Assembly (NCBI RefSeq): GCF_004799665.1
Contig: NZ_CP031310.1
Span: forward strand, 1,542,887 to 1,606,886
From: Halapricum salinum
Lineage (GTDB): Archaea > Halobacteriota > Halobacteria > Halobacteriales > Haloarculaceae
Length of the DNA stretch: 64,000 nt
Reading direction: 5' to 3'
Positions 16,811 to 64,000 of this stretch are shown piece after piece (position 1 is the stretch's first letter; each line of letters opens with the position of its first letter). A program made the translations under genes and the position numbers. The notes under the pieces are model-generated. The model was given only the letters and a program-made list of their open reading frames with translations. It did not search any database and had not been told where the DNA came from.

Positions 16811-17839
16811 ATGTCGCACGAATCGATCGTTGCACAGTTCCGTCTCGGGCGACTCGAAGGCTGGCGGCTCGATTCGGCCGTCGCTTCGCTCTCGATACTC
16901 CTGCTGGTGGGGATCGCACTCGACGCACGAGCGCACGCCTCGGGACTCAGTTTCGCCGAAGAGGGGTTTTTCACGCCAGAACACGCGCTCTTCTACAGCG
17001 CGTTTCTCGGTATCGCGGGGGTCATCGGACTCGCGACGGTCGGTAATCGCTCGGCTGGCGCTGACTGGATCGCGGCTGTTCCGGTCGGCTATCGCGTCGG
17101 CGTCCTCGGCGTTCTGGTGTTCGGATTCGGCGGTGTCGGTGACTACGTCTGGCACAGCACGTTCGGCTTCGAACAGGGGACCGAAGTTCTGACGAGTCCG
17201 ACCCATCTGATGCTGGCGGTCGGTGGTATCCTCTTTTTGTCCTCGCCACTCCGGGCCGCCTGGCGTCGTGACGGTGAGCCGACGCGCCAGGCGATGCTCG
17301 CAGCTGTGCTGTCTGGGGCGTTCACGTTCGGTCTGTTCGGCCTGTTTTCGGGGATTCTCAACCCGATCGCGAATCCGAACATGACAGAGCGATTTACCGT
17401 GTTCCACCAGCTCGCAATCGCCCAGCTCATGGTGTATCCGGGGCTGTTCGTCGGTGTCGGGGTCGCCCTCTCACGACGCTTCGATCTCTTTCCCGGGTCG
17501 CTGACGGTGATCTTCCTCGGTCCCGCCCTGATGGGGATCGCACCGAATCCCCAGAATCTGCCCCTGGTCGGTGCGGCCCTCGCTGCCGGCGTCGTCGCCG
17601 ACGTGCTCGTTCAGGTAGCCCCACCTCGTGCCGGTCGTGCAGCACCGTTGCGGGTGTTCGGTGCGGCGGTGTCGCTCGCGTTCGCCGGCTCGTACGTGCT
17701 GCTCGTCAGGTACGTGCTCTCCGAGCCGCTGGCGCTGAGCGTCCATCTGTGGGCCGGCGTGATCGCACTGGCGGGGCTCGGCGGACTCGTCGTTACGTAT
17801 CTGATCGTTCCGGACGCCGCTCGCGAGTCGACTGCATGA
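16811..17839 (+). CDS. Polytopic membrane protein of unknown function
   Basis: 342 residues from MSHESIVAQFRLGRLEGWRLD; the frame extends upstream, but that part is hydrophilic. Nine or so helices are seen, e.g. SILLLVGIALDARAHA, LGVLVFGFGGVGDYVWHSTF and LMVYPGLFVGVGVAL. His residues sit within membrane segments (YVWHSTFGFEQ, TSPTHLMLAVGG, FTVFHQLAIAQ), suggesting metal or heme ligands. The stop overlaps the next ATG. Together with the two small proteins it may form a membrane complex. Confidence 0.75.
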   Translation: MSHESIVAQFRLGRLEGWRLDSAVASLSILLLVGIALDARAHASGLSFAEEGFFTPEHALFYSAFLGIAGVIGLATVGNRSAGADWIAAVPVGYRVGVLGVLVFGFGGVGDYVWHSTFGFEQGTEVLTSPTHLMLAVGGILFLSSPLRAAWRRDGEPTRQAMLAAVLSGAFTFGLFGLFSGILNPIANPNMTERFTVFHQLAIAQLMVYPGLFVGVGVALSRRFDLFPGSLTVIFLGPALMGIAPNPQNLPLVGAALAAGVVADVLVQVAPPRAGRAAPLRVFGAAVSLAFAGSYVLLVRYVLSEPLALSVHLWAGVIALAGLGGLVVTYLIVPDAARESTA

Positions 17840-18084
17840 GACGAGTCAGTGTCCTCTCGGTGCTCGTCGTGGCCGTTCAGCCGACGCTCGCACACACGAC
17901 TGAGACGGCCCACCACGAACCGTCGCCTCTTCCGCCAGTGATGTTTCTGGCCGGCGTCTTCGTTCTCGGGACTGCGGTCTACCTGGACTCGCGTGATGCG
18001 CTCGATCGATGGCTTGCCGATCTCGGTGTCGGCGTCGGTGTGCTGGCGATCCTGGCTGGAATCGCACTGCTGTTCGTTCTGTGA
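17836..18084 (+). CDS. Small two-helix exported/membrane protein (paralogue 1)
   Basis: 82 residues. A signal-like N-terminus (RRVSVLSVLVVAVQPTLAH) is followed by HTTETAHHEPSPLPPV, then two membrane helices with a charged loop DSRDALDRWLADLG. It overlaps the preceding gene (ATGA). The next gene shares the same layout and several motifs, so the pair arose by tandem duplication. His-rich extracytoplasmic segment may bind metal. Confidence 0.7.
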   Translation: MRRVSVLSVLVVAVQPTLAHTTETAHHEPSPLPPVMFLAGVFVLGTAVYLDSRDALDRWLADLGVGVGVLAILAGIALLFVL

Positions 18085-18129
18085 CTCCAGATCGACACGC
18101 ACATTCTCACGCGTATCTAACGGGGCTCT

Positions 18130-18375
18130 ATGCGGCGACTCAGCACTATCGTGCTACTCATACTCGCGGTCCAGCCGGCACTGGGGCACACGACCGGGCA
18201 GCCCCACACGGAGACTTCACCCGTGCCGCCGGTGGTCTTGGCGGCCGGTCTGTTCGTCTTCGGGACGACCCTCGTGCTGGAGTATCGCGATCTGCTCTCG
18301 CGTCGACTCACGATTGCTGGCCTCGGCGTCGGCGTCGTCCTGTCGGGGGTCGGTGCCGGGCTGTTTTTGACCTAA
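18130..18375 (+). CDS. Small two-helix exported/membrane protein (paralogue 2)
   Basis: 81 residues, aligned end to end with the preceding protein: MRRLSTIVLLILAVQPALGH / HTTGQPHTETSPVPPV / two helices separated by EYRDLLSRRLTIAG. Conserved between the two are MRR.S, AVQP.L.HTT, SP.PPV and D.L.R. Its stop overlaps the convergent VCBS-protein stop by 3-4 bases. Confidence 0.7.
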   Translation: MRRLSTIVLLILAVQPALGHTTGQPHTETSPVPPVVLAAGLFVFGTTLVLEYRDLLSRRLTIAGLGVGVVLSGVGAGLFLT

Positions 18376-19661
18376 CTCACGCCCGTCTCACCGGATCCGT
18401 CGATCTTGTCGCCGTCCCGGTTCCGGAGGAACTCGATCTCGATCGTCCCGCCGATGTCGTCGAGATATTTGAGATCACCGTTGGCGTTGCCGACGTACAC
18501 CAGCTCGGGCCGGTCGTCGCCGTCGACGTCTGCCGCGGCGGTCGGGGCCTTCTTGGCCTGTGGCGCGCTCGTCCCGGAGACGTCCCCACTGGTCACCGTC
18601 TCACCGCCGCCGTCGTCGACCAGCAGGATGTCGTTGCCGCCATCCACGACTGCGACGTGGGTCTGGCCGTCGCCGTCGAAGTCAGCGAGCGTCCCGGTTC
18701 CGATCCCGTTGTTCGAACCCGTCGAGACGCCGGTCGTCCGTACGCTCCCGCCGGGTTCGAGATACCGGAGCGTCTGACTGGCGTCGCCGAAGACGAGTTC
18801 GTCGGTCCCGTCACCGTCGATGTCGCCAGTACCGACGATCGACTGCGCGCCGTCGCCCGGTGTCGCGACTACAGTCGGTGATCCCGAGGGTGTCGCCCGG
18901 TAGATCGTGTCGTGATTCTGGTTGACAAAAAAGACCGCGGGTGGGCTTCCCTGCCAGCTCGTGACCGCCAGTCTCGTCTTCTGCTGGGCGACGTTGCCCG
19001 GGATCGAGCTGCTGTCAGCCACCGTGATGACGTCGCCGTCCTCGTCGACGACATTGACGTTCCCGTTGCTGGTGACGAACGGTAGTTCGGCGTTGCCGTC
19101 GCCGCTGACGTCTTCGCCCCGCGAACCGAGCCCCTCGACGGTGCCGGCGTCGAGGAGAGTGCTCACGGTCCCACCGTCGCCAGTGATCTGGATCACATCG
19201 CCATCGCGTCCGGTGAAGAGGGCGCCGTCGGGGAAGCCGCCGTTGGACAGTGGCGACCGGCCGGTCCCGGGGTCGACGTCGAACGTCTGGAGGGTGTAGG
19301 TGACGCCGTCGGCCGCGTCTTCGGACCAGACCACCCGCACCGTTTCGCGGCTCGGGTCGACCCGGACGGATCGCCCGGCTGTGAGCTCGCTCCCGGCCAG
19401 GACATCGGGAGTGGCGATCCCCTGGATCCGGAGCTGGTCGCCGTCGATTCGCTCTCCAGAGTGCATCCTGAGGACGTAATCGTCGCTCCCTTCAAGTGGT
19501 TCGAGCTGGAGGCTGGCTTCCGGTGCCGGTGGCTTGGTATCCGTCGCTCCGAAGATGAGGACGGCCGACAGTGAGACCAGCACGACGACGATCGCGACCA
19601 ACAGCGTCGTCCCGACGACGGGCGAGAGACCGCGTCGCTCGCGCTGGCGGGCTCGGTACAT
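18372..19661 (-). CDS. Pilin-signal protein with VCBS/FG-GAP repeats
   Basis: 429 residues. The N-terminus RERRGLSPVVGTTLLVAIVV is an archaeal type IV pilin signal with cleavage expected before the hydrophobic helix. The body has repeated Asp-rich calcium-loop motifs (GDIDGDGTDELVFGD, LADFDGDGQTHVAVVDGG, ADVDGDDRPELVYVGN), the marks of FG-GAP/VCBS beta-propeller repeats found in adhesins. It probably sits at the cell surface or in a pilus-like filament as a binding head. No pilus machinery adjoins it. Confidence 0.82.
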   Translation of the reverse strand: MYRARQRERRGLSPVVGTTLLVAIVVVLVSLSAVLIFGATDTKPPAPEASLQLEPLEGSDDYVLRMHSGERIDGDQLRIQGIATPDVLAGSELTAGRSVRVDPSRETVRVVWSEDAADGVTYTLQTFDVDPGTGRSPLSNGGFPDGALFTGRDGDVIQITGDGGTVSTLLDAGTVEGLGSRGEDVSGDGNAELPFVTSNGNVNVVDEDGDVITVADSSSIPGNVAQQKTRLAVTSWQGSPPAVFFVNQNHDTIYRATPSGSPTVVATPGDGAQSIVGTGDIDGDGTDELVFGDASQTLRYLEPGGSVRTTGVSTGSNNGIGTGTLADFDGDGQTHVAVVDGGNDILLVDDGGGETVTSGDVSGTSAPQAKKAPTAAADVDGDDRPELVYVGNANGDLKYLDDIGGTIEIEFLRNRDGDKIDGSGETGVS

Positions 19662-19731
19662 CCGTTCGGTGTCACGAACTCGCGGTTGTTAGGACTGGTT
19701 CGTGGTTTCGCGGACTGAAAACGCCGTCCGG

Positions 19732-20694
19732 TCAGACCGCGTCGACGGCCTCGACCAGCGCACACTTCCGGCAGATGTCTCTGGCTGTACGGGCGCCACA
19801 GGAGTCACACTCCCCGAACTTCTCGTCGTCGCCACCGTAGGCCTCGGCCGCGAGGGCGGCCATCTCCTCGTAGCCGGCCATGATCGAGTGCCGAGTCCCG
19901 GGGTGGTCGTCTTCGAGGCCGAGCATGAGTTCCTGGATCTCTCCCCTGAATGCTTCCTCGGCGTGAGGGCACTCGGTGATATGAGCGGGGAGGTCTTCGA
20001 GGTGGGCGTACAGCGCCACTTCCTTCTCGGGGACGTCCCGGAGTGGTTTGGCACGCGGGACGTGGTGGTCCTGGTCGGTGCGTTCGTCGAGTGGCCCCAG
20101 ACTGGCGTCGAAGTGTTTGGCCATCTGCTCGACGTTACCTTCGAGGAAGTTCATCAGTGCCGTCTCGGCCTCGTCGTCGAGGTTGTGGCCCGTCAGCATC
20201 AGGTCGGCGTCGTACTCTTCTGCGTAGCGTGAGAGGACGTCCCGGCGGAAGACCCCGCAGTACGCGCAGGGGGCCATGTTCTCGGGATCTTTCTCGACGA
20301 CGTTGTCCATCTGGAGGTCGAATTCGTCCTCGTAGGTGACGACCTCGTGGCGGATGTCCAGATCCGCGGTGAGTTCCTCACAGGCGTCGAGACTCTCGTC
20401 GCGGTAGCCTTCGATACCCTCGTGGATCGAGAGGGCGATCATCTCGATCCGGGGGTCTTTCGCGAAGGTGTCGTCCAGAATCTTCGTGAGGACGACGCTG
20501 TCCTTGCCGCCCGAGAGGCCGATCACCCACGTGGTGGGATCGTCGGGCGTGGCGTCGTCGGGGACCAGGCCGTCCTCGCGGATGCGTCGGCGGACGCGCT
20601 TGTCGACGCTGCGGACGAGGTGCTCCTGACAGAGGTGGAGCCCGGAGTAGGCGGCGTGCATGACCGCCTCCTCGCCGCACTTGTCGCAGTTCAT
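19732..20694 (-). CDS. ncsA: tRNA 2-thiolation enzyme, NcsA/TtuA family
   Basis: 320 residues. N-terminal zinc site CDKCGEEAV...CQEH, PP-loop SGGKDS at residues 61-66, catalytic CAYCGVFRR, GHNLDDEAETALMNF, and a C-terminal zinc ribbon CDSCGARTARDICRKC. It adenylates U34 (or U54 in TtuA) and inserts sulfur delivered by a SAMP-type ubiquitin-like protein. Start ATG 20694 is used; a GTG precedes it. Gene symbol assigned by family and not certain between ncsA and ttuA. Confidence 0.9.
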   Translation of the reverse strand: MNCDKCGEEAVMHAAYSGLHLCQEHLVRSVDKRVRRRIREDGLVPDDATPDDPTTWVIGLSGGKDSVVLTKILDDTFAKDPRIEMIALSIHEGIEGYRDESLDACEELTADLDIRHEVVTYEDEFDLQMDNVVEKDPENMAPCAYCGVFRRDVLSRYAEEYDADLMLTGHNLDDEAETALMNFLEGNVEQMAKHFDASLGPLDERTDQDHHVPRAKPLRDVPEKEVALYAHLEDLPAHITECPHAEEAFRGEIQELMLGLEDDHPGTRHSIMAGYEEMAALAAEAYGGDDEKFGECDSCGARTARDICRKCALVEAVDAV

Positions 20695-54282: not shown

Positions 54283-56421
54283 TTAGACGAGCGCGAAGGC
54301 TGCGACGGCGATCAGGAGCAGGACGATGCTGTACTTCAGGCCGCTGAAGGCGTCGTCGTCGGCGAGTTTCCCCGCGATGACGCCGCTGCCCAGCGCCTGC
54401 AAGATCGCGGCGTGCAAGAACAGCGCCTGGTAGGCCGCCACGGGCGTGTTCGCGAGGCTGACCGGCAGGCGCGGGCCGTCCTCGACCGGCGTGGCGGGAT
54501 CGGCCGCGGCCTGTGCCTCCGCGATGGGCGTCAGGTAGGCCGAATCGAGCAGGACGACCACCAGCAGGAAGACCAGAAAGCCGATGACGACGACTGCGAT
54601 GTAGGGCGTCAGTTCCTGGCGGCGCTCGCGGTCGAGTTTGAACCGTTCTTTGGTGTCACGTGCGGCGATCGTCAGGACTGCGGCGACATCGCTGCTCGAG
54701 CGAATCCCCTCGCCGATGAGTGTCATCGTCCGGGCCAGTTGCGGGACGGCGACCCGGTCGGCGAGGTTGCGCATGGCCGCCCGGGTGTCGAAGTTCCAGC
54801 GCAGGTCGTTCTGCAGGAGTTTCATCTGTCTCGCGAGTGGCCCCGTCGACCACCGCGAGAGCAACCCGAGGGCGTCGTCGAACTGGACGCCCATCTTGTT
54901 GGCGCTGGCCAACACTGACAGCGTATCGGGGAACTTATCGGAGAACTGTCGCTCTCGACGTCGTTTCCGTTCGTGGAACATCGACAGCGGGATCATAACC
55001 ACCAGCAACGGGGCGACGACGAGCCACGTCGTCGTCGGGACCGGCCGTTCGAGCATCGCCTCCTGTGTCGGTGTGGCGACGCCGAGTCCGACGGCGGCTC
55101 CGAGCGCGAGCAGCGCCAGCGGGACGGTGATCACGAGCGAGTAGACGGGCCGTTCCCGAAACGCTGCGAGCGGATCCGACACCGCTTCGATTAGCGCCTT
55201 CCGGCGCCGATGCTTGAGATATTGCCCCTGCTGTGCTTCGAGGGATCCGTCGATCGTGGTCGCGCTGGCCGGGCGCGGTTGGAGGCCGGGGAGCAGGTCC
55301 CAGAGGACCGTTGCGACGAGCGTGAAGCCGCTCTCGATATCACTGTCGTTCTCGCCGAAGTGAACTGCGGGCTGTTTGTACGGCTCCGAGACCGTGTCCA
55401 GCAGGACCAGAAAGCCAAGCATCGACAGCGGCAGAACGGCGTAGACGAGCAAGACGAGCTGGGCGAGCGTGTTGCCGCCGAGCAGGCTCATCACGACGAG
55501 GATGACGATAATGAACAGCGGAGCGGCGACGAACAGGACGATGAAGAACTCGCTCAAGACAGCGAGCGTCTCGAGGAAGGAGTGCTGCTCGTCTCTGGCC
55601 TCTTCGAGGTAGTCTTCGGCCTCTGTCTCGAAGAAGGTCGTGAGGTCCCCACCGGAGTCGAGGACGCCGATCAGGTCGTCGAGGAACTGCTCGAAGTTAT
55701 CACTCGGCGTGAGGTTTCGCACGTTTCGCAGGGCGGTGTTGACGTCGTTGCCGAAGAACTCGACCTCGCGGACGATCATCTCGGCCTCGTTGGCGATCTC
55801 GCCGTAGGTCCCCTCGTTGTCGGCGAGGATGTCGAACACCTCCATGAGGTCCATCCCGCCGCGCGAGAGTGCGTACATGAATACGATCGCGTGTGGGAGC
55901 GTGACGTCGATGTTTCGACGGCGACTGGAGACGACGAACCTGGGATAGTGATACCGCAAGTACCAGGTCCCGAGACCGAAGATCACTGCCGAGGCGATCG
56001 TGAGCACGCCGCCAGCGACCAGCACCTCGTTCTCGGCGATCAGGTAGACGATCTCGCCGTCGTAGTCCAGTGGGTTGGAGAGCCCTTCGATCAGTCCCGC
56101 AGAGACCAGCAGCCACGAGAAGACGATCCCGATGACGACACCGGCAATCGTCGCGCCCACTGCGAGCAGTGCGCTCCGCTTGAGATAGACATCGTAGCTC
56201 TGGCCGTAGCGGGCCTGATTAAGCCACTCCTGGAGATCGACGTACCGCTGTGGTCGGGCCTTGTAGTAGGCCCGCATCCAGTCGTACTGCTCGCGGAGCT
56301 CACGCTCGCCGACCCCGCGGCGCTCCTGGACGTACGGGAACTGCCGCAGCTCGTACTCGCTGGGTTCGGTGTCGCCTGCGGAGTGCCGGTCTGTGTCCCG
56401 TTCGGCCGGTTCACCGCTCAT
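54283..56421 (-). CDS. Type IV pilus inner-membrane platform, TadC/PilC family (double T2SSF)
   Basis: 712 residues. Two T2SSF modules: the first near residues 190-320 (VVSSRRRNIDVTLPHAIVFM, MDLMEVFDILADNEGTYGEI) and the second near 480-610 (RRERQFSDKFPDTLSVLASA, DLRWNFDTRAAMRNLADRVA), each with flanking membrane helices; nine to ten helices in all. It anchors the ATPase and drives filament assembly. Overlaps the ATPase gene by 4 bases (ATGA). Confidence 0.92.
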   Translation of the reverse strand: MSGEPAERDTDRHSAGDTEPSEYELRQFPYVQERRGVGERELREQYDWMRAYYKARPQRYVDLQEWLNQARYGQSYDVYLKRSALLAVGATIAGVVIGIVFSWLLVSAGLIEGLSNPLDYDGEIVYLIAENEVLVAGGVLTIASAVIFGLGTWYLRYHYPRFVVSSRRRNIDVTLPHAIVFMYALSRGGMDLMEVFDILADNEGTYGEIANEAEMIVREVEFFGNDVNTALRNVRNLTPSDNFEQFLDDLIGVLDSGGDLTTFFETEAEDYLEEARDEQHSFLETLAVLSEFFIVLFVAAPLFIIVILVVMSLLGGNTLAQLVLLVYAVLPLSMLGFLVLLDTVSEPYKQPAVHFGENDSDIESGFTLVATVLWDLLPGLQPRPASATTIDGSLEAQQGQYLKHRRRKALIEAVSDPLAAFRERPVYSLVITVPLALLALGAAVGLGVATPTQEAMLERPVPTTTWLVVAPLLVVMIPLSMFHERKRRRERQFSDKFPDTLSVLASANKMGVQFDDALGLLSRWSTGPLARQMKLLQNDLRWNFDTRAAMRNLADRVAVPQLARTMTLIGEGIRSSSDVAAVLTIAARDTKERFKLDRERRQELTPYIAVVVIGFLVFLLVVVLLDSAYLTPIAEAQAAADPATPVEDGPRLPVSLANTPVAAYQALFLHAAILQALGSGVIAGKLADDDAFSGLKYSIVLLLIAVAAFALV

Positions 56422-58250
56422 AACTCCTCGACTATATCGGTGACGTTCAGGTCACTTGGCTCGATCTCCGAGGGCGCGGGCCCCTCGTCGGTGAGGTCCT
56501 CGTGTGTCAGCGTCCCCGCTTCGATCGCCTTGAGCAGCCGATCGGGGTCGCGGACGTACCGTTTGAGCGCTTTCGAGACCGCCTCGTAGCCGGTGATATC
56601 GTTGTCGAGGAGATACCGGAGGACGCTCTTTCGGCGGTCGAACTCGGTCTGCAATTCCTTGTCGGTCCACCCACGGTCGTCGGCGATCTCCACGAGGAGT
56701 TCGGAGTCTGCGACCATCTCGTGGCTGTCGTCTTTGGCGTTGCGGCGGAACACTTCGTGGGTCTCGATGGCGTTGGGATCGGCCGGGTCGGCCCGTAACT
56801 CGGTGATCGTGCGATTCCGCCGAACGCGCTGATCGTCCAGAAACGTCTGTTGCTGGACGGAGACGACGTCTAGCTCCTGGACCATCTGGGTCGGAACGTT
56901 CAGCGGCGGGTTCAGGAGGCGCGACAGCACCGTCTCGATGGAATCGGCGTGCAGCGTCGTGTAGGAGGTGTGGCCGGTCGACATCGCCTGGAAGAACGTG
57001 AGCGCGACTCGTTCTTCCGTACGGATCTCCCCGACGAGCAGATACTCCGGCCGCTGGCGAAGGGCGGCCTGCAACAGTTGATACATCGTGACTTCGCCGC
57101 GACCCTCGCTGGTGACTGCGCCGCGGGTGACACTCTGGATCCAGTTCTCGTGGGGCAGGTCGATCTCGCGGGTGTCTTCGATGGTGACGACCTTGCTCGA
57201 CGGCGGGATGAAAAACGAGACGGCGTTCAGACTAGAGGTCTTCCCGGAGCCGGTACCTCCGGCGAAGATCAGCGACTTGTTGTTCTCGATGGCAAGCCAG
57301 AAGTAGGCCATCTGCTCGACGGAGAAAGTATCCCACTCGATCAGTTCGATCGGCGTGAGCGGAATCTCCGCGAACTTCCGGATCGTGAAGTTCGAGCCAC
57401 GCGTCGAGATGTCGCCGCCGAGGGTGAGCTGGATCCGCGAACCGTTCGGTAGTGTGGCGTCGACCAGGGGGTTCGAGACGGTCATCTGCTTGCCCGAGCG
57501 CTGGGCCAGCCGGAAGGTGAACGCGTTGAGGTGTTCGCTGTCGAAACTGACGTTCGTCTTGAGGTCGCGATACCGCCGGTGGTAGACGAACACGGGGATG
57601 TCCGCGCCGTCACAGGAGACGTCCTCGATGGCGTCGTCGCTCATGATGGGATCGATCGGCCCGTAGTCGATGAAATCGCGGATGAGATAGTACAGCAGTT
57701 TGTGGATCGTCCCCGACTCGACGGCCGCGGCCTGTTCCTCGATCAGGGTCCGGGCCTCTCGGCGGAAGGCAGCTTCGCGGTCGTGATCGTCGAAGTCCCG
57801 GTACATGAGATTGTTTCGGAGCATCTCGATCAGGTCGCCCCGGACGTATCGCTCGAAGTCGTCCAGCACTGGCTCGACGACGTGGTAGCGATACTCGTTC
57901 TCGGCCTCGTCGTGGAGGATCGTCACGTACGCGAACGGTTCTGCGACCCACTTCCAGGAGACTTCCTCGTAACGGTCCAGATAGCTAAAATCGAAAAACT
58001 GTGAGGCGATGAACGCAGCCTCCGGCGGATCGACGACGCTTCCCGAGAGCTCCTCGAAGTACTCGTAGACGTCTCCGAGCACCTGGGTGACCGTCGGATG
58101 ATCGTAGAGGACGATCTCACTGCCGGTCGATTCGTCGAGGTCGAGTTCGCCCTCGAGTACCGCTGTCGCCTGCGTCTTTGAGACGTCCTCTGGAGAGACA
58201 CCCTCGCCGCTCCCACTCTTTGGCTCCGGGGCTTGGCCCTGCTCACTCAT
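56418..58250 (-). CDS. Type II/IV secretion ATPase (TadA/PilB/GspE-like)
   Basis: 610 residues. Walker A LIFAGGTGSGKTSSLNAVSF, Asp box VVTIEDTREIDLPHENW, Walker B region QRPEYLLVGEIRTEERVALT and His box MSTGHTSYTTLHADSIETVL. N-terminal linker is acidic. It powers pilus assembly with the adjacent platform protein. First gene of the three-gene operon; no prepilin peptidase gene in the window. Confidence 0.94.
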   Translation of the reverse strand: MSEQGQAPEPKSGSGEGVSPEDVSKTQATAVLEGELDLDESTGSEIVLYDHPTVTQVLGDVYEYFEELSGSVVDPPEAAFIASQFFDFSYLDRYEEVSWKWVAEPFAYVTILHDEAENEYRYHVVEPVLDDFERYVRGDLIEMLRNNLMYRDFDDHDREAAFRREARTLIEEQAAAVESGTIHKLLYYLIRDFIDYGPIDPIMSDDAIEDVSCDGADIPVFVYHRRYRDLKTNVSFDSEHLNAFTFRLAQRSGKQMTVSNPLVDATLPNGSRIQLTLGGDISTRGSNFTIRKFAEIPLTPIELIEWDTFSVEQMAYFWLAIENNKSLIFAGGTGSGKTSSLNAVSFFIPPSSKVVTIEDTREIDLPHENWIQSVTRGAVTSEGRGEVTMYQLLQAALRQRPEYLLVGEIRTEERVALTFFQAMSTGHTSYTTLHADSIETVLSRLLNPPLNVPTQMVQELDVVSVQQQTFLDDQRVRRNRTITELRADPADPNAIETHEVFRRNAKDDSHEMVADSELLVEIADDRGWTDKELQTEFDRRKSVLRYLLDNDITGYEAVSKALKRYVRDPDRLLKAIEAGTLTHEDLTDEGPAPSEIEPSDLNVTDIVEEL

Positions 58251-58426: not shown

Positions 58427-59782
58427 TCACGCAGCGGCCACGAGTCGCTGGCGGGCGACGCCGACGAGCAGTGCGAGGACACCGACCGTCAGGAGCGCGC
58501 CGGCGACGAACGGCGACCAGCGTGCGAGCACGACGTACAGCGCCGTCATCACTGGTGGGCCGACCGTGCGTCCGAGGCTGCCCGCACCCTGGGTGACGCC
58601 GAAGGCGCTGCCCTGTTCGGCGTCGCTTGCGGCCATCGAGACCAGCGCCGCGAGCGCGACGTTCAAGAGTGCGTTACCGATCGAGAGGACCGCGAGGACG
58701 ATCACCAGGACGAGTACTGCCGGCGTGAGGCCCGCCACCGACGGCAGCGAGAGCGTCGTCCCGACGGACGGGGAGAACGGGAGGACGGCGAGCGATCCGA
58801 CCAGCAGTGTCGCCCCGCCGACGGCCAGCTGCGTCGGCTCGAAGCGTCGGGAGAGTCGGCCGACGAGGACGCCCTGATTGAGGACACTGAGTACGCCGAT
58901 GTAGGTCAGAAAGAGCCCAGCGCCAGCGGCGTCGTAGCCGTAGACGTCCGCGAGGTAGGGAACGAACGCGATCTGGACACCCGAGAAGGCCAGCGACGCG
59001 ACGAAGAACGCGAGCACCAGCGGTCTGAGCGTCGGACTCGCCAGCGCCCCGCGGAACTGATCGAGCAGTGACTGCCGGGCCCGACCGCGCGCCCCCGCTC
59101 GCTGGGCAGCCGTCCGGGTTTCGGGGAGGAACCGCCAGGCTGCTACCAGTGCGAGTCCGCTGGCGGCCGCCGCGCCGAAACTCGGGAGCGTGAACTGGGT
59201 CGTCGGAATTACCGCCGGCAGCACCTCGCGAGCACCCGAGACGACTGGGTCGCTCGCGAGGACGGCACCGAGCGCCGGCCCGACGACGAACCCCAGTCCG
59301 AACGCCGCGCCGACAAGTCCGAGCGCGCCGGTGCGTTTCTCGGCGGTCGTCACGTCCGCGACGTAGGCCTGCGCGGTCGCGATGTTACCGCCCATCGCCC
59401 CGCCGAGCATCCGGGCGGCGAACAGCGTGAGTAGCGCGGCGGTCGGCCCCAGCAGCGTCCCGACCTGCGTCCCGAGCCCGAAGACGATCCACGCGAGGAC
59501 GCTCCCCGCGAGCGACAGCATCAACACCGGGCGTCGGCCGTAGGCGTCACTCCAGCGACCCAGCAACGGCGCGAAGCCGAACTGCAGCAGCGAGTACGAC
59601 GCCGCCAGCAGACCGTAGACGACGTCGCTCGCGCCGAAACTCCGGACGTAGAACGGCAGGATCGGGACGACGATACCGAACCCGACGAGGTCGATGAAGA
59701 CGATGACGAAGACGGTCGCCAGCGCCCGGCGACCACCGACGACTGGATCGGCCGAGGCCGTCCCGACGCGCGGATCTTCCAT
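58427..59782 (-). CDS. MFS transporter (TetA-like)
   Basis: 451 residues, twelve helices. Motif A GRWSDAYGRRPVLMLSLAGS, FIDLVGFGIVVPILPFYVRS in TM1, and AFGLGFVVGPALGAVLASD near the motif-C position typical of drug/H+ antiporters. Probably effluxes a drug or metabolite. Start MEDPRVGTASADPVVGGRRA. Divergent from the DUF2249 gene. Confidence 0.9.
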   Translation of the reverse strand: MEDPRVGTASADPVVGGRRALATVFVIVFIDLVGFGIVVPILPFYVRSFGASDVVYGLLAASYSLLQFGFAPLLGRWSDAYGRRPVLMLSLAGSVLAWIVFGLGTQVGTLLGPTAALLTLFAARMLGGAMGGNIATAQAYVADVTTAEKRTGALGLVGAAFGLGFVVGPALGAVLASDPVVSGAREVLPAVIPTTQFTLPSFGAAAASGLALVAAWRFLPETRTAAQRAGARGRARQSLLDQFRGALASPTLRPLVLAFFVASLAFSGVQIAFVPYLADVYGYDAAGAGLFLTYIGVLSVLNQGVLVGRLSRRFEPTQLAVGGATLLVGSLAVLPFSPSVGTTLSLPSVAGLTPAVLVLVIVLAVLSIGNALLNVALAALVSMAASDAEQGSAFGVTQGAGSLGRTVGPPVMTALYVVLARWSPFVAGALLTVGVLALLVGVARQRLVAAA

Positions 59783-59876
59783 CCCGTGGGTCGTGGCGGC
59801 GGATCGGTGTATAGGTTCGGGGAAGGCGAACATCATCGGCTCAATCCTCTCACTGCTGGGACCGCTCGATTCGTCC

Positions 59877-60113
59877 ATGAGCAGTGGCAGTGCTGCGGAG
59901 GCGGATCGTCGGCTGGACGTGCGGACGATCGACGGCGAACCGTTCGGTGACATCGTCGCGACGCTGTCGGACCTCGGGCCCGAGGAGACACTTCTGTTGA
60001 TCAATAGCTTCGAGCCGGTTCCCCTGTACGACGTGCTCGAACAGCGCGGGTTCGTCTACGAGACGACCCAGGTCGCCGACGACGAGTGGCACGTTCGGAT
60101 CGACCACGCCTAG
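59877..60113 (+). CDS. DUF2249 family protein
   Basis: 78 residues: RRLDVRTIDGEPFGDIVATL, ETLLLINSFEPVPLYDVLEQ and RGFVYETTQVADDEWHVRID, the complete DUF2249 signature. The fold is TusA-like, related to sulfur-carrier proteins and found near denitrification or redox genes. No TusA-type CPxP motif. Confidence 0.9.
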   Translation: MSSGSAAEADRRLDVRTIDGEPFGDIVATLSDLGPEETLLLINSFEPVPLYDVLEQRGFVYETTQVADDEWHVRIDHA

Positions 60114-60659
60114 ACTACCTCACCCTACTCGCTCACAGCTCTCCTCGAAAACTAGTTGACAGCCATCGACCGCCGCCGACGGGCAGCGGCGGCTGGGTCG
60201 ATAGCCGAAAAATGGGTCCAGCACCCATGAAACTGGACCCTGGCGATCGTCGGGGCACAGACGATCGAATGGCGTCGTCGAACTCCGTCGAACACAGCCG
60301 ATGCAGTGTCGTCAGCCGTCGTCAATCTGCTTTTGCGTGATCGTTCATACTTTCTCGCGATTCTGCTACGATACGGTCTATATATCCTGCGTCTATACCT
60401 CTTCCTTGTTTTTCCATTGCGTTTTGTACGATATTCTGGGACCATATAAGGCTACTGTGTAGATGGACTTACTCAATGCTATTGTCCTAATATTGTATTA
60501 GTGCGCCAGCCGGCCGGTTTTCTCCATCTCGACGTCGGTGGATAGAAACAATTAAGTCTATGATTCAACAATATCGAGGCGATAATTACCGCTCTCGGCG
60601 GTAGCAAATCATTCGGGGCCGTCGCCGGAGATGACGGCCGCCGTGGTGGGGAGTAACTC
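60114..60659. other. Intergenic region, AT-rich, upstream of the giant frame
   Basis: About 545 bases with no convincing gene. 60340-60600 is strongly AT-rich: CTATATATCC, TTGTATTAGTG, ACAATTAAGTCTATG and AACAATATCG. A hairpin GGCCGTC/GACGGCC spans 60617-60638, just ahead of the GTG at 60660. The region likely holds promoter elements for the long gene; composition differs sharply from both sides. Confidence 0.45.
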
Positions 60660-63600
60660 GTGCCAGCAGAGTCAGGGGGGGAAGACCTCTCACGAGTCGT
60701 GCGTTCGATCGGAGTGACAGAGCCGTGGGGGAGCGATCACGGACTGGGGACACTCCACTCGGGAGCGGCGAGCATGACGGTCTCGGGAGCCCTCGATCCG
60801 CTTGGATCGGCGCAACTGGCGGGTGGGGTCGGTCGCTTCGGTGGCCTGCTCTCGCTGGGGATCTCCTGGCGGCGGCCGCGTCTGGGGCTGACGTTTCTCT
60901 CCCCGTCTCGGGATGGACCCGATCACGACAGTTCTGGGGGCGTCGAGACCGTCGAGGCGGTATCCTCTAGCGACACCGACCACGTTTCGAGAAGCGTTCC
61001 CGCGACGGCTGTCCCGCGGATGGACGTCGGGTCCGGGCGGTCCGTACCCGCGCAGCCCGCCTCACGGACCGGTGTCGGTGCTCGTCGGTCCGAATCCGTT
61101 CAGCCCGTGTCGCCCCTCCTGGCGAGTGAGGACACGGCTCGGTCCGGGAGGGCGGGAGTGCTCGACCAGGGTGGTGCTCGTGCGTCCGACGGGACCAGTG
61201 TCGAGAGCCCGCCGTCGCCGACACACCAGCGCGCTCCCTCCGGCCGGCAGGGCGTCGTCGGATCGCTCGACGCCGTGACTCGTCCCCGAAACGCGAACGC
61301 CGCGTCGTCGGATCGATGGCCAGCGACGGCCGGTACCTCGCCGATACAGCCCGCGTCGGTCGATCACGCCTCACGGTCGCGAGTGTCCGACAGCGGGTCA
61401 GTTGCGTTCGAGCGTCGGTCGCAGCACAGGCCGGCTGCACCGGACCAGCCCATACTCTCGGTCCCGGAGACGTCGGGGGTCTCCGAGCCAGCAGCGACCT
61501 CGAAGTACTCTCCACGCACACGGACGTTCGGTCGCCAATCCGTCTCCAGTCGTCACTTCGAATCCGATCGTCCTCCTCTGTCTGGGTCCGGACACGAGGG
61601 ACGTGAGACAGCCCCTTCGATCGACGCACGGCGAGGCGGGTCCGTGTTCGGGGCCGAAGACCGACAGCTGCCGGGGGCTCAGCGTCGCCTGGCGACCGAT
61701 GACGACCGGTCGTCCCGAGAGCAACTGCGCTATTCGTCGCTGGGGCAGCACCGCCATCTCTCGACAGGGCAGTACCGACAGCCCTGGCAACCGGTCGGTC
61801 CTCGAACGTCCCACATTTATCGCCCGTTCAGCGCTCGCTCTCGCCCGTCGGCGTCACCCGTCACACCGTCCGTGGAAGGTGACGATCCGCGGCTCGTCTC
61901 GGTCGAGCGTCGTGTGTCACCGATTAGCCTGCCGACGTCGTCCCTACCGGCCGCCCAGTCGGAACCGGGGGCCGTCCAGCCAACGTCGCTGCCAGTGGGG
62001 CGGCAATGGAACAGCCGACGGTCGCCGGAGTCGGTGGTTCGATCCCCGATCCGCTCGCGTCTTGGGCGGGGGACAACGGCAGCCAAAGGAGCTGGTGACG
62101 GCTTCGACTCCGGTACTGAATCCCTCCATCGATTCAGAGCGGACGCCGATCGGTCCCCGAGACCGACCACGGTCGACCGAGGGGGTTCGGCTGCCCAGGA
62201 GCGATACCGAGAGCTGCCCGGGGCAGCGCGGCCACCACCGCACACGACCGATCTGTCGCATCCATTCGCTCGCCCGACGACGACCGGGGCGACGCCGAGA
62301 CGAGCAGGGTCCCTCCCGTCGGAGACGCACGGACGTGTCGGTCCGGGGACGAACGCACGTGCGAGCGCGCCCCCGACGAGAGGTGGGACGCGGGCCGATC
62401 TGTCGGCAGTCGGGGGCTCCATGGCGAGCGACCGTGCTGGACGACGCCAGCCTGACGACAGCGGCCTGTCCGTCCCCCGCTGGGACGGTGCTGCTCGGCT
62501 AGGGGTCGTCTCTCGTCGCCAGCAGCGCTCCCAGCAGCCCGTGTCGAGAGTGCCGGTGAGTGGTCGCCCATCGGCGCATTCGATCGACGTGTCCGACTCG
62601 GGAAGTCGCGCTGACGTGACGCACGCGCTCGAAGCTGTCGGCCAGCGTCCGATCGGAGCGATTCCCGCTTTCGGAGCGGTCCGCGACGCACCGCCGCGGT
62701 TCGAAGAGCGCCCAGTCTCACGGCAGCGATCGGGCGTCGAGACGACCAGGGCGGCCGTCGACCGTCCGATGCCAGCCGTTTCAGGGACGAGTTCCGGGCC
62801 GGGATCGCCGCGGGTGCGCTCGACACGGTCTGAAGTCTCCGCTGGAGCGTCACGGGGACTCTTGCGGGAGCAGTCCGGCTCGGTGTGGTCGTCACGGCCA
62901 GTCCACACCGCCCCGGCACGGGCAGACGTCTACAGGGGTACGTCGACGTCGCGACGAGAGTCACGCCCGTTCGATACGGTCGGACCGCCGACGTCGGACC
63001 GGTCCGAACAGAGGTCGTCAGAATCCGACGCTGGGCATCCCTTCACGGACCACAGCGTCGAGACGATCGCTCAGGACCCTCGAGCGAGGCGCCTCGTCCG
63101 GCAGACGGCGTATTCCGGAATGAAAGCGCCACTGTCGCCGAATACTGTCCACGCCGGTCCCGAGATATCGAAGTCGGGTCGCGCTGGAGTGGGATCCTTC
63201 AGTCCCGCTCGCCCCGTGGTCGCTCGACGTCTCGGTTCGAACGCGATCTCGCGTCGGTCGGTCCTCGGAGCGTCGACGCCGGACCGTTACTCGAGGGGGG
63301 CTGCCGGTCGCCGACGGCCGACACTGCAGCCACTCGCCCGTCCGGCGTCTGACGATGTCCCTGCACATACGCAGTCACTTTCAGCGCCCGCGTCGTTCGA
63401 ATTCGATCACACGGGTATAGTCCCTGTCGCACACGCTACCTCGCCCACCGGGATCGGTCTATCCGCCGCAGACGGGCCGACTGCTGGCGACCAGATCTCG
63501 ACGCCGCTGGCGAGGTCGCCACTGACGTCGTCTTCTCGTTCGGCCTCTCGCTCTCGCGTGGTGTCGTCTCGCTCGCCTGATCAGGGGGCGGCCGATGTGT

Positions 63601-64000
63601 CACCGAGTGTTCCCCAGACGGCGTCGGACCGGCCGTCGCCTCAGTCGCCTCGATTCTCGGGGGTCACGACGGAGCGCGCTGTCCAGACACGTGCCTCCGC
63701 CACTCGGACGGTGGTCGACTGGTCGTCCGATCCGGCCGATCGCGTCGGGAAGTCTCCTGCACCCGGGTCGCCCAACCTGTCCGTGAGTCACCGTCCTGTC
63801 TCGCCTGGCGCGTCGCCGCTGGTTCCCGAGCGGTCCGATCGGGTCTCGCACCGGAGCTTCTGTCGCTCTTCGGGGGCCCCCGCGGTCGATTCGCTGACAG
63901 GCGATCCCGCAGCCGGGAGTGGGTCTCTGCTGGCTGGTTCAGTCTCTCCCTCGGCACCCTTCGACGCTCGAGCCGCTGGTGAGGCACCGTCCACTACCGG
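60660..64000 (+). CDS. Giant Ser/Arg/Pro-rich, probably disordered protein (5' part)
   Basis: After an in-frame stop at 60654, the frame from GTG 60660 runs to the window end without a stop: 1113 codons and continuing. N-terminus MPAESGGEDLSRVVRSIGVT ... GSAQLAGGVGRFGGLLSLGI then a change to low-order sequence rich in Ser, Arg, Pro, Thr, Val and Asp, with hardly any Lys, Cys or hydrophobic runs (e.g. ARPVVARRLGSNAISRRSVL; SPLTSSSRSASRSRVVSSRS). In a sampled 137 residues Arg (20) exceeds Asp+Glu (14), unlike normal halophile proteins. No known domain. Translation could also begin at ATG 60774. Function unknown. Confidence 0.72.
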   Translation, partial: MPAESGGEDLSRVVRSIGVTEPWGSDHGLGTLHSGAASMTVSGALDPLGSAQLAGGVGRFGGLLSLGISWRRPRLGLTFLSPSRDGPDHDSSGGVETVEAVSSSDTDHVSRSVPATAVPRMDVGSGRSVPAQPASRTGVGARRSESVQPVSPLLASEDTARSGRAGVLDQGGARASDGTSVESPPSPTHQRAPSGRQGVVGSLDAVTRPRNANAASSDRWPATAGTSPIQPASVDHASRSRVSDSGSVAFERRSQHRPAAPDQPILSVPETSGVSEPAATSKYSPRTRTFGRQSVSSRHFESDRPPLSGSGHEGRETAPSIDARRGGSVFGAEDRQLPGAQRRLATDDDRSSREQLRYSSLGQHRHLSTGQYRQPWQPVGPRTSHIYRPFSARSRPSASPVTPSVEGDDPRLVSVERRVSPISLPTSSLPAAQSEPGAVQPTSLPVGRQWNSRRSPESVVRSPIRSRLGRGTTAAKGAGDGFDSGTESLHRFRADADRSPRPTTVDRGGSAAQERYRELPGAARPPPHTTDLSHPFARPTTTGATPRRAGSLPSETHGRVGPGTNARASAPPTRGGTRADLSAVGGSMASDRAGRRQPDDSGLSVPRWDGAARLGVVSRRQQRSQQPVSRVPVSGRPSAHSIDVSDSGSRADVTHALEAVGQRPIGAIPAFGAVRDAPPRFEERPVSRQRSGVETTRAAVDRPMPAVSGTSSGPGSPRVRSTRSEVSAGASRGLLREQSGSVWSSRPVHTAPARADVYRGTSTSRRESRPFDTVGPPTSDRSEQRSSESDAGHPFTDHSVETIAQDPRARRLVRQTAYSGMKAPLSPNTVHAGPEISKSGRAGVGSFSPARPVVARRLGSNAISRRSVLGASTPDRYSRGAAGRRRPTLQPLARPASDDVPAHTQSLSAPASFEFDHTGIVPVAHATSPTGIGLSAADGPTAGDQISTPLARSPLTSSSRSASRSRVVSSRSPDQGAADVSPSVPQTASDRPSPQSPRFSGVTTERAVQTRASATRTVVDWSSDPADRVGKSPAPGSPNLSVSHRPVSPGASPLVPERSDRVSHRSFCRSSGAPAVDSLTGDPAAGSGSLLAGSVSPSAPFDARAAGEAPSTT

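Follow-up and report, generated by a model that had tools for sequence, protein, structure and literature searches.

The analysed window is a 64,000-nucleotide stretch of the 3.45-Mb single-contig genome of Halapricum salinum (NZ_CP031310.1, positions 1542887-1606886), and positions below follow its numbering, which is continued beyond its end where necessary. The right end of the window contains a giant open reading frame (ORF) that opens the operon of a contractile injection system (CIS) of the archaeal type VI-like kind. The features at this end are as follows.

56418-58250, minus strand: type IV pilus-type secretion ATPase, by sequence appearance
58427-60004, minus strand: MFS transporter
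59694-60113, plus strand: DUF2249 ORF, overlapping the 5' end of the MFS ORF as listed
60114-60659, plus strand: AT-rich intergenic region and presumed promoter region of the CIS operon (role inferred), with a GGAG-like sequence just before the GTG of the giant ORF
60660-64000, plus strand: in-window part of the giant ORF (codons 1-1113 of 1942)
60660-60914, plus strand: conserved N-terminal segment of the giant ORF (residues 1-85, with LSRVVRSIGVT and GGVGRFGGLLSLGISWRRPRLGLTFLS)
60915-64000, plus strand: disordered, fast-evolving Ser/Arg/Ala/Gly/Pro/Thr-rich middle of the giant ORF, continuing beyond the window
66396-66485: last 30 codons of the giant ORF, the conserved C-terminal predicted helix
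66488: end of the giant ORF (contig position 1609374)
66489-67154: cis7
67155-68905: two spike genes
76815-78074: cis13
78171-79910: sheath
79964-80419: tube
80553-81089: tail-assembly chaperone-like gene
81340-81810: second tube

The frame is open from the GTG at 60660 to the window end, and the other five frames hold 10-20 stops over the same stretch. On the extended contig it runs to 1942 codons, against 21-29 stops in each of the other frames. About 40 stops are expected at the observed base composition, and the probability of none is about 2e-18. The longest overlapping frames encode 366 aa on the plus strand and 363 aa on the minus strand. The protein contains 16% Ser, 13% Arg, 11% Ala, 10% Gly, 9% Pro, 8% Thr and 0.7% Lys, with a net charge of +82, or +0.042 per residue. 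The preceding AT-rich boundary is real, with a GC content of about 0.53 at 60000-60750 against 0.63-0.72 on either side. The observation made in the first-pass annotation, a giant Ser/Arg-rich frame open past the window end behind an AT-rich boundary, is therefore confirmed. One detail does not hold. The first 60 residues, which were taken to be ordered, are conserved among relatives, but AlphaFold2 gives them no fold on their own (mean pLDDT 54). The description of the ORF as unrecognised is right, since it has no match in Pfam, PHROGs or NCBIfam. No tandem repeats were found in it.

The base following the stop codon is the ATG of cis7, which encodes a 221-aa hub adaptor with a C-terminal LysM domain. 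It is followed by a GPD-like hub, Phage_base_V, PAAR-like, gp25-like, two Baseplate_J proteins, a Tail_P2_I protein, a CIS13-family protein (E 9e-166), sheath, tube, a chaperone-like gene, a DUF6760-like ORF and a second tube. The sheath, both tubes, GPD, base_V, both J proteins, P2_I and CIS13_fam are supported by Pfam/NCBIfam hits, and the LysM, PAAR-like and gp25-like ORFs lie in the expected order. The cluster is a contractile injection system, and its parts are split over three chromosomal places. The DUF4255 cap (cis16) lies next to a 443-aa multi-TM, membrane-anchor-like protein at contig positions 872225-874442, and the AAA ATPase (cis15) lies at 2245617-2247710. Downstream of the CIS operon, a long CARDB/Big_1-type protein and an archaeal pilin-like protein with four PKD domains are encoded (positions 16878-20000 and 60-1631 of the extracted segments L003 and L004, respectively).

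A search with cis7 identified the CIS in 46 of 392 sampled Halobacteria genomes, including this one. In all 46, and on a Haloferax larsenii plasmid, a same-strand Ser/Thr/Arg/Ala/Gly/Pro-rich ORF ends at or just before cis7; in the 46 genomes it encodes 381-2365 aa. Both ends of the protein are conserved. The last ~30 residues follow ADVDRxVxRLYRxLERKxRIERERRG and are predicted as one helix in a relative from Halostella (AlphaFold2 pLDDT 92-96). The first ~80 residues are recognizably conserved, whereas the middle drops to roughly compositional background between genera. A search of plasmids with the 36-aa C-terminus gave no match, but this search is insensitive because H. larsenii carries a relative. 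Phage records gave only weak LysM-region matches to cis7.

Codon usage had been proposed beforehand as a test of whether the frame is coding, and the ORF comes close to failing it. Its G+C content by codon position is flat (0.68/0.67/0.70, against 0.66/0.42/0.85 for the sheath gene), and its codon usage differs from that of its neighbours. The flat G+C content probably explains why annotation fails. In H. larsenii (NZ_CP078064.1, 335228-342187, minus strand), RefSeq annotates only the last 177 residues of a 2319-codon ORF, and the rest of the ~7 kb holds only two tiny hypothetical ORFs on the other strand. These features could suggest that only a short C-terminal ORF is translated and that the long frame is a GC-rich accident. 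Evolutionary comparison of relatives settles the matter. In eight close pairs, all 100 alignment gaps upstream of the last 200 codons are multiples of three, although two of the pairs share a species and the gaps are not all independent. The dN/dS ratio is 0.47-0.90 by thirds of the ORF, against about 0.8-1.25 in shifted frames. Together with the absence of stops and the conserved N-terminus, these results make the accidental-frame reading very unlikely, and the coding nature and CIS membership of the ORF are near-certain.

The interpretation offered in the first-pass annotation is partly supported. A long disordered protein belonging to a large phage-tail-like assembly is supported by the operon. 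Binding of nucleic acids or polyanions, inferred from the Arg excess, is not supported. Net charge is not conserved in sign among 47 orthologues (-0.076 to +0.053 per residue, median +0.014), and the idea that the Arg excess itself is functional was rejected on this basis. What is conserved is a near-neutral charge in halophiles. The strict linkage to the CIS hub gene also argues against a binder acting outside the machine, and this reading is very unlikely despite the 13% Arg, under 1% Lys and net charge of +82 in this genome.

The length of the ORF falls into two classes. It is 1096-2365 aa in all 34 genomes that have a 6-TM protein matching the published description of the putative membrane anchor, and 381-625 aa in all 12 genomes without it. 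The assignment of this protein rests on architecture: the published anchor, Hbor_38620, is described as a 6-TM membrane protein with a ~150-residue cytoplasmic domain. A 376-aa protein of that architecture (6 TM by eye) lies next to the giant ORF in Natrinema and has a 41% identical relative beside cis16 in this genome. The correlation may reflect a single evolutionary split. In Natrinema-type clusters the gene order is sheath, tube, chaperone, DUF6760, second tube, anchor, giant ORF, LysM and hub, as in contractile phages. Here the ORF abuts cis7, but the tube and chaperone genes lie downstream. The chaperone-like gene matches the phage tail-assembly chaperone family phrog_508 (5/5 members, best E 1.7e-11), and such a gene was found in 45/45 genomes. 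In phages this chaperone coats the tape measure.

Outside haloarchaea, ORFs in the same neighbourhood with a similar basic C-terminal helix motif occur in Firmicutes (516 aa and 369 aa at two loci, L101 and L102, and 532 aa in Paenibacillus), in Streptomyces clavuligerus and in the cyanobacterium Kovacikia minuta. The resemblance is short and was judged by eye, and common descent is not proven. The S. clavuligerus ORF (locus L120, 16792-20937) encodes 1381 aa, is Pro-rich, lies between the DUF6760-like ORF and the second tube gene, and is absent from an incomplete plasmid gene table. Kovacikia has a 2316-aa disordered ORF before the hub genes (locus L121, 19162-26112) and a separate 68-aa ORF with a similar C-terminal motif (18431-18637), so roles may differ between lineages.

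Two published systems are reported to lack a tape-measure gene. In the Halogeometricum borinquense cluster, structural homologues of all parts were found except plug, tape measure and crown (PMC11566945). Streptomyces coelicolor particles are identical in length (268 nm, 60 tube layers), although a tape-measure gene is said to be absent (PMC12237407). The giant ORF is the best candidate for the part that sets tube length, and no other long candidate was seen in the clusters compared. In the short-ORF clade, the extra ORF between cis15 and the short form looks, by its N-terminus and by eye only, like a DUF4157-type cargo gene rather than a separate tape measure. In the favoured model, the C-terminal helix would be anchored in the Cis7/Cis8 hub at the bottom of the tube, the disordered middle would run up the lumen, and the N-terminal segment would meet the growing or capped end of the tube. 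The number of residues would then set how many tube/sheath rings are stacked. The analysis establishes that the ORF is coding over its whole length, that it belongs to the CIS, that it lies immediately before the hub gene, that its ends are conserved and its middle variable, that it co-occurs with a phage-type tail-assembly chaperone, and that its two length classes track the gene of a putative membrane anchor as described above. Location in the lumen, hub binding and length control are inferred, and the ruler role is about as likely as not.

The lengths fit the assemblies roughly. At 1.5 A per residue, the rise of an alpha helix, 381-625 aa corresponds to 57-94 nm in the anchor-less clade, near the ~22-ring tail of the Anabaena CIS. 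In the anchored clade, to which H. borinquense (220 nm contracted sheaths) belongs, 1096-2365 aa corresponds to 164-355 nm, near the sizes expected for long anchored systems. If S. coelicolor resembles S. clavuligerus, 1381 residues over 60 rings would be about 1.7 A per residue. A near-neutral charge among acidic neighbours also suits a tube lumen that is reported as negatively charged in other CISs. Other observations count against the model. Known tape measures are largely helical, whereas this chain has a disorder-type composition at or below the charge-hydropathy boundary, is Pro/Gly-rich, and has no Pro/Gly-free stretch over 64 residues in any member. Sister species with 78% sequence identity differ by 302 residues, so length is not tightly held. 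The H. borinquense subtomogram average showed no extra density in the lumen, and its sheaths are called heterogeneous, although a disordered chain filling perhaps 15-20% of the lumen (our estimate for three copies) could be invisible.

ALTERNATIVES. The known plug Alg6 has an N-terminal strand, a flexible loop and a C-terminal helix, and it sits as a trimer in the spike cavity (PMC8894135). In Anabaena a flexible loop reaches into the lumen (PMC8894136). The giant protein could be a Cis6/Alg6-like plug with an enormous loop and no ruler role, its N-terminal segment lining the hub cavity, its C-terminal helix trimerizing there and its loop hanging into the lumen. It occupies the cis6 slot before cis7, its C-terminal helix is predicted with high confidence in the Halostella relative, and no separate short plug gene was seen in the haloarchaeal clusters examined. 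However, PDB searches with the C-terminal sequence alone, with its profile and with two Kovacikia C-termini as possible plug relatives returned nothing relevant and no detectable similarity to any solved plug chain. A 10-residue loop would have had to grow to about 1900 residues, and the two length classes tied to the anchor are not explained. This alternative is possible but unlikely, and plug and ruler are not exclusive.

A role as effector carrier or cargo, holding or ferrying toxins in the lumen or on the spike, is also unlikely. It is suggested by the variable, fast-evolving middle and by resemblance in position and partial disorder to Tme, the tapemeasure-related effector of Streptomyces davawensis (PMC11126660). 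However, no DUF4157 match, no transmembrane-like segment in any of 47 members and no enzyme domain at either end were found. The conserved C-terminus is a short helix rather than an enzyme, and DUF4157 cargo genes exist separately.

A broader and more tentative reading, somewhat less likely than not, is that CISs said to lack a tape measure do have one, in the form of a giant intrinsically disordered chain anchored in the hub by a short C-terminal helix. In this view its length class switched together with the mode of action, being short in CISs without the membrane anchor and long in membrane-anchored archaeal T6SSs, and it has been overlooked because gene finders drop it. A conserved giant protein in the tape-measure slot, which annotation can miss, makes the question of length control directly testable in haloarchaea. 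If the ruler reading is right, an unstructured chain can serve as a molecular ruler, and a key part of these machines is missing from current gene catalogues.

Compared with known systems, the cluster has the same kind of gene set as the haloarchaeal CIS, or archaeal type VI secretion system, of H. borinquense, and a multi-TM protein that by its architecture matches the published description of the putative membrane anchor. It differs in the dispersal of its parts over three chromosomal places, and the giant ORF is not mentioned in the published text that was read. With phage and Afp14-type tape measure proteins the giant protein shares the gene slot between tube/chaperone and hub genes (in Natrinema), great length, conserved ends with a variable middle, and the presence of a tail-assembly chaperone gene, but it is a disordered Ser/Arg/Pro/Gly chain rather than helices and has no sequence similarity to any tape-measure family. 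With the Cis6/Alg6 spike plug it shares the slot before cis7, a C-terminal helix, a flexible middle and a possible N-terminal strand, but it is far longer and has no detectable sequence similarity. Like Tme, it is the largest ORF just upstream of baseplate genes and is mostly disordered, but the DUF4157, transmembrane helices, coiled coils and C-terminal nuclease of Tme are not found here.
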